Source: Paraurantiacibacter namhicola (GTDB taxonomy: Bacteria; Pseudomonadota; Alphaproteobacteria; Sphingomonadales; Sphingomonadaceae). Taken from it: DNA of 64,000 bases. Positions 18,284 to 53,782 of the stretch are shown piece after piece (within the stretch, counting starts at the first letter, position 1; the number at the start of each line of letters is the position of its first letter). Where the stretch lies: NCBI RefSeq assembly GCF_001687545.1, contig NZ_CP016545.1, positions 2,279,001 to 2,343,000 of the forward strand, read 5' to 3'. Below the pieces are notes generated by a model, which was not told the origin of the DNA, did not search any database, and saw only the letters and a program-made list of their open reading frames with translations. Made by a program: the position numbers and the translations under genes.

Positions 18284-18333
18284 GTAAAGAGCTCTTTACT
18301 GTAAAGACCTCTTGTCAGTCAAGAGCTCTTTAC
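18284..18333. promoter_or_regulatory. Double palindromic operator of the XRE gene
   Basis: Site 1 (18284-18299) is a perfect 16-bp palindrome, GTAAAGAGCTCTTTAC. Site 2 (18301-18314 and 18320-18333) has 14-nt arms GTAAAGACCTCTTG / CAAGAGCTCTTTAC with one mismatch and a 5-nt gap. Both carry the GTAAAGA half site. On the minus strand a TTGACT in site 2 could serve as the -35 of the XRE promoter, so binding would block it. Confidence 0.72.
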
Positions 18334-18445
18334 AGCTTTCCTACACGGACCGCAGCGCGCGATGGCCGCGCCATGTCTCGCCCGCTCTCACCCTCCATGC
18401 CGCAGAAAACCCTCGCTTCGCGCGCTCGCGGGTTTTCGCTCCAGG

Positions 18446-18497
18446 ACTGTGTAACACCTGTAACACCTTTCAGCTTCGCGCCTCGAAAGCTGAACGG
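18446..18497 (+). repeat. 52-nt dispersed leader element, copy 1
   Basis: Direct repeat (TGTAACACC, preceded by a close copy) followed by a hairpin TTCAGCTT...AAGCTGAA. The first 35 and last 11 nt are identical to the copy at 53556-53607; only 6 loop positions lie between, differing in most. It ends 66 nt before the lysozyme start, in the same orientation. Confidence 0.7.
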
Positions 18498-18563: not shown

Positions 18564-19163
18564 ATGAACAGGCATGTGGTGATGGAAACGGTGCGGCAGA
18601 TCCTGGGCCGTGGTCTCAGCGCGGGCGAAACGCGCGAGCTGGAGCTGGCCCTGCGCGAAGACGGATGCGGGCGCGGTCCGCTGCCCCGCCCGCGCCGGAT
18701 CGGGCCGCAGGGCATTGCCCTCATCAAGCGTTTCGAAGGCTGCGCCCGGCGGCTGGCAGATGGCCGGGTGGCGGCTTATCCCGATCCGGGCACGGGCGCC
18801 GCGCCCTGGACCATCGGCTGGGGCGCAACCGGCGCGGGGATCGGCCCGGGCACGGTGTGGACGCAGGCGCAGTGCGACGCGCGGCTGGAGGCGGACCTTG
18901 CGCGCTATGCCGCCGATGTCGACCGCGCGCTGGGCGATGCCGCCACCACGCAGGCGCAGTTCGATGCCCTCGTCAGCTTCCACTACAACACCGGCGCCAT
19001 CGCCCGGGCCACGCTGACGCGCCGCCACAAGGCGGGCGACAGTGCGGCAGCCGCGCGCGAGTTCGCCCGCTGGAACCGAGCAGGCGGCCGCGTGATGAAG
19101 GGCCTGGTCAGGCGGCGCGAGGCGGAGGCCGAGCTGTATCGCGGATCGCCGGGCGGCGTGTGA
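18564..19163 (+). CDS. Lysozyme/endolysin, glycoside hydrolase family 24
   Basis: Muramidase of the T4/P21 lysozyme family, 199 residues. The catalytic triad context is intact: Glu in KRFEGC, Asp in YPDPGTG and Thr in WTIGWGATG, about residues 55-90 (numbering approximate). FHYNTGAIARATL and a C-terminal KGLVRRREAE are typical. A 50-residue basic N-terminal part has no obvious signal peptide, so export would need a holin or another route. AGGAGG lies 6 nt upstream of the ATG. No other phage genes are nearby: probably a domesticated endolysin. Confidence 0.88.
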   Translation: MNRHVVMETVRQILGRGLSAGETRELELALREDGCGRGPLPRPRRIGPQGIALIKRFEGCARRLADGRVAAYPDPGTGAAPWTIGWGATGAGIGPGTVWTQAQCDARLEADLARYAADVDRALGDAATTQAQFDALVSFHYNTGAIARATLTRRHKAGDSAAAAREFARWNRAGGRVMKGLVRRREAEAELYRGSPGGV

Positions 19164-52703: not shown

Positions 52704-53486
52704 TCAGCGCGGCGCCATGCGGATCGCGCCGTCGAGCCGCACGGTTTCGCCGTTCATGTAACCGCTTTCGATCATGAACACCGCAAGGTCGGCATATTCA
52801 GCCGGGACGCCGAGCCGCTTGGGGAACGGGACGCTGGAGGCCAGCGCATCGCGCACCTTGTCCGGCATGCCGGCCATCATGGGCGTCTCGAAGATGCCGG
52901 GCAGGATCGCGTTCACGCGGACGCCCTCGCCCATGAGGTCGCGTGCCATGGGCAGGACCATGCCCTTCACGCCCGCCTTGCTGGCCCCGTAAGCGACCTG
53001 GCCGATCTGGCCGTCTTCCGCCGCAACGCTGGCGGTGGTGATGATCGCGCCGCGCTCGCCATCATCCAGCGTGTCCAGCGACAGCATGCCCGCCGCGCTC
53101 TTGGCTGCGCACAGGAAGGTGCCGGTCAGGTTGACGGCGATGGTCTTGGCGAACTGGGCCAGCGAGTGGCTCTTCGCCTCGCCCGTTTCCTTGTCTCGGC
53201 TGGCCAGCTTCGCGCCGCTGACGATGCCCGCACAGCACACCAGCACGCGTTCCTGCCCGTGCGCCTCGCGCGCCTTGGCAAAACCCGCATCCACGCTGGC
53301 CTCGTCGCTGACGTCGACCTTGCAGAACACGCCGCCCAGCTCCGCCGCGACCGCTTCGCCCGCTTCTACATTCATGTCGAAGATGGCGACCTTCGCGCCC
53401 TTCGCGGCGAGCGCGCGGGCAGTCGCTTCGCCGAGGCCCGATGCGCCCCCGGTGACCACGGCGGCAGTGTTGGAGTCGATCTTCAT
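52704..53486 (-). CDS. 3-hydroxyacyl-CoA dehydrogenase type 2 (SDR, HSD10-like)
   Basis: SDR oxidoreductase of 260 residues resembling human HSD17B10 and bacterial 3-hydroxyacyl-CoA/2-methyl-3-hydroxybutyryl-CoA dehydrogenases. Cofactor loop TGGASGLG (13-20), cofactor specificity FDMN (Asp indicates NAD), CCAGI in place of NNAG, SVAAEDGQIGQVAYGASKAG carrying Ser, Tyr and Lys, and LPGIFETPMMAGMP. Likely beta-oxidation or branched-chain degradation. A copy of the 52-nt element ends 69 nt before its ATG. Upstream of mtnP. Confidence 0.88.
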   Translation of the reverse strand: MKIDSNTAAVVTGGASGLGEATARALAAKGAKVAIFDMNVEAGEAVAAELGGVFCKVDVSDEASVDAGFAKAREAHGQERVLVCCAGIVSGAKLASRDKETGEAKSHSLAQFAKTIAVNLTGTFLCAAKSAAGMLSLDTLDDGERGAIITTASVAAEDGQIGQVAYGASKAGVKGMVLPMARDLMGEGVRVNAILPGIFETPMMAGMPDKVRDALASSVPFPKRLGVPAEYADLAVFMIESGYMNGETVRLDGAIRMAPR

Positions 53487-53555: not shown

Positions 53556-53607
53556 CCGTTCAGCTTCCGCCCCGCGAAGCTGAAAGGTGTTACAGGTGTT
53601 ACACAGT
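53556..53607 (-). repeat. 52-nt dispersed leader element, copy 2
   Basis: Minus-strand copy of the element at 18446-18497: identical over 35 nt at one end and 11 nt at the other. Here the hairpin is a perfect 9-bp stem TTCAGCTTC / GAAGCTGAA. It lies 69 nt before the 3-hydroxyacyl-CoA dehydrogenase start. Confidence 0.72.
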
Positions 53608-53782
53608 CCATGGGACAAAATCCGGCGCGGTCGATCGGACCCCGTCGAAGCCCAGCTGGTGGCGCAAAGAAGAAATCATCAGCAGTAAACATGACTGCAC
53701 CCATCCAACCCGCGTTAGCAGTAGGAAAGCGCCCTGTTCCGCGATAGGATGTGAGCGATCACAGCGTGGAGAGGGTAGCTGC

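Follow-up and report, generated by a model that had tools for sequence, protein, structure and literature searches.

In phage P22, the recognition site of the small terminase subunit (TerS) lies inside the TerS gene itself, and binding of phage TerS proteins to pac in vitro is described, in passages of the same paper, as mostly weak and sequence independent (PMC9611059). The system reported here resembles the TerS/pac pairs of phages such as P22 and SPP1 in that a protein with a TerS-type N-terminal helix-turn-helix (HTH) domain, recognized by profile, has a site in or just past the gene that encodes it (34 of 38 loci). Unlike in the phages, the locus is chromosomal and lies by uvrA, the neighbours of the gene in the source genome include no large terminase, portal or capsid gene, many further sites stand in gene leaders, and helix and site covary. 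In HTH regulator families, DNA-reading residues correlate with operator bases, as described in two studies (PMC4494728, PMC4052901). The LacI, GntR and MerR families share this property with the system described here, but their correlations run over orthologous groups and subfamilies, whereas here an orthologous regulon is recoded between species and also within a genus. One further study (PMC5045206) reportedly addresses the same theme of regulator-operator correlation. OmpR/PhoB-type response regulators use direct-repeat operators whose half sites are arranged head to tail at a spacing of about one helical turn. The same head-to-tail spacing is seen here; unlike in OmpR/PhoB-type operators, the period is 9 bp and another protein family fits.

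The stretch of DNA that was analysed, here called the window, comprises 64,000 nucleotides of Paraurantiacibacter namhicola (contig NZ_CP016545.1, positions 2,279,001 to 2,343,000), whose genome has 2,591,679 bp in one contig. A first-pass annotation of the window had described a 52-nt element at 18446-18497 (+) and 53556-53607 (-), and both copies were indeed found at these places and on these strands. Their layout of 35 identical nucleotides, a divergent loop of 6 and a further 11 identical nucleotides was borne out, as were the distances from the end of the element to the next start codon (66 nt to the ATG at 18564 for copy 1 and 69 nt to the ATG at 53486 for copy 2) and the open frames reading DCVTPVTPFSFA-x-RKLNG in which the two copies lie. 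In the window, TGTAACACCTGTAACACC has exactly two matches at ≤3 mismatches, compared to a mean of 0.01 in shuffled sequences. Existence, layout and distances thus stand, but the 52-nt description was too narrow, since the genome holds 18 copies, the conserved limits are shifted and there is a second, upstream part. The genome-wide search that had been proposed was run with the 20-mer TGTAACACCTGTAACACCTT at ≤3 mismatches and gave 12 exact copies, 5 with one mismatch and 1 with two; none had three mismatches, nor did any in the reversed control, and the 18 near-identical copies are therefore without a degenerate tail. Sixteen of the 18 face a recognizable gene on the same strand, and mapping to start codons placed the first in-frame ATG 32 to 222 nt from the repeat in 16 of the 18, the start of lolC being uncertain within this range. 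One copy (L004) has no identified downstream gene, and another (L014) is located within an HTH gene. The pattern that had been named as speaking against a functional element, copies scattered at any distance and in any orientation, was not found, and the element stood.

Aligned on the repeat, the 18 copies share an A/T patch 14 to 17 bp before it, then CWGGACWS, two consecutive copies of TGTAACACC, and TT. Patch, WGGACWS and a 9-bp direct repeat make up the core, and each repeat unit reads TG-N3-CA with N3 = TAA. Conservation starts slightly earlier than the 52-nt element, with the A/T patch and WGGAC, and stops at CCTT. Over 136 sites, the patch has a mean of 4.24 A/T in 5 positions versus 2.18 in a control window. 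The hairpin that had been noted is present in both window copies, but its two full 8-nt arms are kept in only 6 of the 18 genome copies and shorter 6-nt arms in 7. The positions of all these parts in the window are compiled in the table. Two other readings of the short boxes were tried and dropped: there is no excess of hairpins before the T tract (48 sites, mean z of -0.32, 8 below -1), as a terminator would require, and no -10 element was seen by eye that would fit a sigma-70 or ECF promoter made of GGAC and the repeat.

Table. Parts of the element and adjoining genes at the two copies in the window
Feature	Position	Strand	Remark
Copy 1, TTTCCTAC box, putative -35 element of upstream promoter	18337..18344	+	box conserved across sites
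Copy 1, ATG 36 nt from box start, putative leaderless start of short ORF	18373..18375	+	
Copy 1, A/T patch (TTTT)	18433..18436	+	
Copy 1, WGGACWS block	18443..18449	+	
Copy 1, direct repeat TGTAACACC x2, putative operator half sites	18450..18467	+	
Copy 1, hairpin TTCAGCTT/AAGCTGAA, accessory, not conserved	18469..18494	+	
Copy 1, downstream gene, phage-type lysozyme-like protein	18564..19163	+	NCBIfam BgtA 84.7 bits, below cut-off 315
Copy 2, TTTCCTAC box	53721..53728	-	
Copy 2, ATG 36 nt from box start	53690..53692	-	
Copy 2, A/T patch (TTTT)	53617..53620	-	
Copy 2, WGGACWS block	53604..53610	-	
Copy 2, direct repeat TGTAACACC x2	53586..53603	-	
Copy 2, hairpin, accessory	53559..53584	-	
Copy 2, downstream gene, short-chain dehydrogenase/reductase	52704..53486	-	NCBIfam PRK08217 best, 178.9 bits, below cut-off 298

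The upstream part is a TTTCCTAC-type box, T(T/G)TCCTAC, which was found 74 to 129 bp before GGAC in 16 of the 18 copies and is followed in the same 16 by an ATG that stands 35 to 38 nt behind the box start and 39 to 93 nt before GGAC. The only places in the window where TTTCCTAC is followed by an ATG 36 nt from its start are copies 1 and 2, and there box start and GGAC are 107 and 119 nt apart, respectively. The box is present at 112 of 135 sites from many genomes compared to 0 to 4 of 134 to 136 in eight control windows, and 98 of the 112 have an ATG at 35 to 38 nt. We infer a promoter with a leaderless start from box and ATG; the frame that leads from this ATG into the repeat varies among the copies. 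Box and ATG are not confined to the element: they also precede TerS-like paralogs and occur in genomes without detected sites, 15 times in G026 and 17 times in G308, which does hold sites, in a dialect that the search pattern missed. Putative leaderless TTTCCTAC promoters of TerS-like HTH paralogs, several per genome, were noticed at three loci of G306 and G026 (L177, L179 and L197), where the paralogs share a further string, AAATCTGCC..ATCCT, before the ATG. Upstream of copy 1, window positions 18284-18335 hold a repeated palindrome, AAGAGCTCTT, with TGTAAAG/CTTTACAG flanks, which adjoins a minus-strand gene that by eye appears to encode an XRE-type HTH protein, and which is probably that gene's own operator.

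The genes behind the copies of the source genome encode glutathione-transferase-like and ArsC/Spx-type proteins, PdxH, a cystathionine-synthase-family protein, FolP, BamD, Lpd, MoaC, SdhB, LolC, the lysozyme-like protein, the short-chain dehydrogenase/reductase (SDR), a Kef-type antiporter, Lon, a DEXH helicase and a methyltransferase-like protein whose gene follows recA (recognized by eye); several of these assignments are below the NCBIfam cut-off, the reason for lon and the helicase being that the gene runs past the end of the locus. The targets are mostly housekeeping genes, with no obvious function in common.

Exact copies of the own spelling were found in none of 58 relatives; with 2 to 3 mismatches, it matched in 6 of 148 other genomes of the family, no more than the reversed control, and a wider search of genome contigs gave 4 matches, all unrelated. 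Sites in other dialects were first seen upstream of pdxH and moaC orthologs, and a generalized site then turned up in 6 out of 58 other genomes, with 5 to 29 copies each; all 6 belong to the family, and the 24 genomes that represent other families of the order had none. A wider pattern matched in 40 of 298 family genomes from 22 of 96 genera, the control in 0. The common form is WGGAC-NN-TG-N3-CA-NN-YG-N3-CA. The triplets N3 are nearly uniform inside a genome and differ between genomes, even within a genus: TAA/TAA was found at 13 of 18 sites in the source genome, TGT/TGT at 28 of 30 in G006, TTC/TTC at 11 of 11 in G306, TAA/GTC at 9 of 9 in G004 and 10 of 12 in G033, and TCA/TCA at 12 of 14 in G274. 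Mixed half sites are present in G033 and G274. More than one dialect is present inside each of the genera g15, g7, g3, g69 and g87.

Despite the different spelling, the sites stand at orthologous positions. Ninety-two of the 136 sites fall into 26 groups of orthologous downstream genes, each with sites in at least 2 genomes, and by our reading of the list 24 of the 26 groups hold more than one dialect. The site precedes sdhB in 8 genomes, chpT in 7, moaC in 6, and pdxH, folP, lpd and the arsC-like gene in 5 each; the other 44 sites are single, which, with uneven sampling, does not make them specific. Before chpT, the surroundings (TGGCA, TTTTT and TAGGAC) align among three genomes of genus g15, whose triplets are TTC, CTC and TCA. 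Between trpC (identified by motif only) and moaC, the gap is 140 to 261 nt where the element is present (L083, L086, L089, L096 and L100); at most other loci measured it was about -8 to 4 nt, and at L088, L092, L097 and L099, which lack the element, the two genes overlap by 4 nt. Since the genes overlap where the element is absent, the element splits a likely trpC-moaC operon. Near two target loci (L100 and L050), an inverted repeat of the CTTCGACAAGCTCAG type was seen between genes; it resembles an ordinary dispersed repeat.

Box-less copies in the source genome, G004 and G014 are found within genes that belong to a single protein family. In the source genome this candidate reader gene is at 1,376,346, outside the window, and its site reads TAA/TGA, one base off the usual TAA/TAA. 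The protein was matched in 43 of 44 chosen genomes, and genomes of the family carry several TerS-like HTH proteins each. Of 38 loci examined in 36 genomes, 34 carry a same-strand site of the matching dialect 3' to the HTH; it falls within the ORF in 29 of them and no more than 37 nt past the stop codon in 5. Five genomes picked as site-less gave weak protein matches only, except G026; G026 and G154 have the protein and no site by the search pattern, and G018, a genome that is 85% complete, has sites and no protein was found in it. All seven proteins scanned match phrog_4044, terminase small subunit, with E values of 4e-25 to 3e-18 (2.6e-18 for the protein of the source genome). Pfam matches were weak, the best being that of one protein among six to HTH_23 (2.7e-5); NCBIfam gave nothing of use for the TerS-like proteins, and a profile search of the PDB found no relative (best E value 0.046, to an unrelated protein). 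The gene lies beside uvrA in all five regions inspected and near argG in four, and none of the seven neighbours of the source-genome gene matches a packaging, head or tail PHROG; the neighbours in the other four regions were read by their first residues only. In many TerS-like proteins, a second conserved stretch, NRLxRMEAARP...EWWLV, was noticed at the C terminus, encoded after the site. At locus L340 (G159), two matches of one profile place the TerS-like gene in two frames, so that this gene may be broken; the downstream site is intact.

The dialect follows the recognition helix of this protein. Out of 68 variable columns, helix positions 2 and 3 rank as the top two (AMI of 0.686 and 0.565; third, 0.451). 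Proteins with S-H-Q go with TGTAACA..YGGTCCA (8) or TGGTCCA..YGGTCCA (2), S-A-Q and S-P-Q with TGTTCCA twice (7) and S-R-Q likewise (1), S-R-S with TGTGTCA twice (5), S-Y-R and C-Y-R with TGTGACA twice (6), S-S-Q with TGCTCCA twice, S-R-A with TGTCTCA twice, A-P-Q with TGTCACA plus CGTCACA, A-R-Q with TGTCACA/TGTGCCA, and T-R-Q of the source genome with TGTAACA/TGTGACA (the site in the HTH gene). The pair at positions 2 and 3 is not one-to-one with the triplets, as RQ occurs with TAA, TCA and TTC and HQ with two dialects. Within genera, the helix triple differs in all 18 pairs of different dialect and is the same in 16 of 19 pairs of the same dialect. When helix labels were shuffled over all 34 loci, ancestry being ignored, the observed value was reached in 0 of 20,000 shuffles; with shuffling confined to genera, it was reached in 119 of 20,000. 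In a helix-masked tree, the proteins cluster by dialect more than by genus, and therefore alleles may have moved between lineages. This tree has 9 dialect changes and 12 changes of the helix triple, with 6 of 31 inner branches well supported; helix and dialect share ancestry, and the number of independent events is therefore small.

The dialect of the regulon agrees exactly with that of the site in the HTH gene in 24 of 28 genomes and in one half site in 4, with no discordant genome, a comparison that rests on one regulon site in 18 of the 28. Moreover, a prediction rule for four helix classes was fixed before the last search. The protein matched in 209 genomes, of which 49 outside the first set were tried (9 for which loci were given and about 40 that were next best by score), including G286, whose dialect had already been seen in the wider pattern search. 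In 19 genomes the protein belonged to a class covered by the rule: 10 had exactly the predicted site, 1 was half right (second half), none was wrong, and 8 had no detectable site. The helix was of another kind or unreadable in the other 30; 28 of these had no detectable site, one S-R-Q protein had TTC/TTC as before, and one was read in two frames.

Covariation could also arise if an unlinked regulator read the sites and the HTH gene changed with them through shared lineage history alone, and the few independent switches on the tree would agree with this. Against it, the best two of 68 columns are adjacent recognition-helix residues, the switches are coupled in 18 of 18 within-genus pairs, the dialect was predicted out of sample, and a site is in the HTH gene itself; we regard this reading as improbable. 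The TerS-type profile match, a site inside the gene of the protein itself, which matches the description of P22 in PMC9611059, and the resemblance of the copy 1 gene to a gene-transfer-agent endolysin would all fit sites that serve as pac-like packaging starts, with a TerS-like protein that works not in transcription but in DNA packaging, be it for a phage satellite or for a gene transfer agent. The stable locus beside uvrA (5 of 5 genomes; argG in 4) without packaging neighbours and the position of the sites in gene leaders behind a promoter-like box are hard to reconcile with packaging, and a discrete packaging start has, according to passages of PMC6854486, not been shown for gene transfer agents. 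Packaging is therefore an unlikely function of the sites. The TerS-like protein might also bind the sites without blocking the upstream promoter and instead activate or insulate a second promoter downstream. A promoter-like string, CTTG...GCTAGATAGG, was indeed seen by eye between operator and gene at sdhB in the source genome and G274, but its distance to the operator is unlike in the two genomes, and only 32 to 35 nt separate the repeat from the start codon of pdxH and of the arsC-like gene, which leaves no room. We give this mode of action a smaller but serious chance.

The first-pass annotation had offered an operator, a cis-regulatory RNA, a leader peptide and a dispersed repeat. The hairpin and open frames in both window copies and the strict strand orientation had made an RNA or a leader peptide attractive. 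The leader peptide did not survive the comparison of copies: the frame from ATG to repeat differs, several copies lack a start in the VTP frame, and in some a stop codon occurs inside or at the repeat. The RNA hairpin fared no better, with 8-nt arms in 6 of 18 copies and folding energies behind the repeat near those of shuffled sequences (mean z of -0.50 in the own 18 and -0.05 in 118 other sites); no Rfam match was found in the window. Since neither frame nor hairpin is conserved and the triplets track the HTH recognition helix, an RNA or leader peptide is now extremely improbable. A passive dispersed repeat or mobile element would account for the near identity of copies within the genome and for the wider trpC-moaC gap where the element is present. 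What is conserved beyond single genomes is only the short boxes, which face orthologous genes from orthologous positions in different spelling and in one orientation to the gene; a plain repeat is thus very unlikely. For a REP- or MITE-type repeat, too, we found only boxes conserved, at orthologous positions, and no conserved full-length unit at unrelated places. The operator option, by contrast, gained from the gene-facing orientation, the orthologous positions across genera and the covariation with the recognition helix, all read directly from the sequences. As in a transcription-factor regulon, sites of the same orientation stand before several genes at orthologs, and they covary with DNA-reading residues.

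We therefore consider it likely that the 5' two thirds of the element are the operator of a chromosomal TerS-like regulator whose code has switched repeatedly and which may act as a road block. That the TerS-like protein reads these sites is very likely; that it acts as a road block is a more tentative proposal, put forward with some reserve. Two HTH domains would read the two head-to-tail TG-N3-CA half sites, 9 bp apart, with residues 2 and 3 of the recognition helix setting the triplet N3. About 16 genes, most of them housekeeping, would carry the operator in their leader, as a rule 39 to 93 nt past the ATG at which the transcript from the TTTCCTAC promoter is predicted to start, and the bound protein would block RNA polymerase arriving from this promoter. 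The site in the regulator's own gene would give autoregulation, and protein and operators would shift their specificity together between species. Binding, promoter, start point and direction of the road block are predictions from sequence. A road block is favoured over helix-phased activation because the spacing varies on both sides of the site, and a directional road block with autoregulation fits best in view of the head-to-tail pair, the orientation, the leader position, the variable distances and the copy in the own gene.

HTH-operator coevolution (PMC4494728, PMC4052901) and a TerS site inside its own gene (PMC9611059) are already known in kind, as far as the relevant passages of these papers go. 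In the open-licence literature, no description was found of a chromosomal TerS-like regulon whose dialect changes between close relatives. Whether, in the Erythrobacter lineage, a domesticated phage packaging protein runs a housekeeping regulon whose operators, about 10 to 30 per genome, have all been rewritten several times, even inside one genus, along with two or three recognition-helix residues, is in our judgement evenly balanced. The near identity of operators within a genome exceeds what is needed to find 18 sites and points to strong continuing selection or to active copying that holds all of them to one dialect. It has long been asked how a regulator of many genes can adopt a new recognition sequence and keep its network intact, and nature seems to have carried out such network recoding repeatedly among these close relatives. 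With matched sets of protein and operators at orthologs, intermediates, order of events and cross talk become directly testable. The sites also provide a first lead to a chromosomal role of TerS-like HTH proteins, together with a readable helix-to-triplet code.
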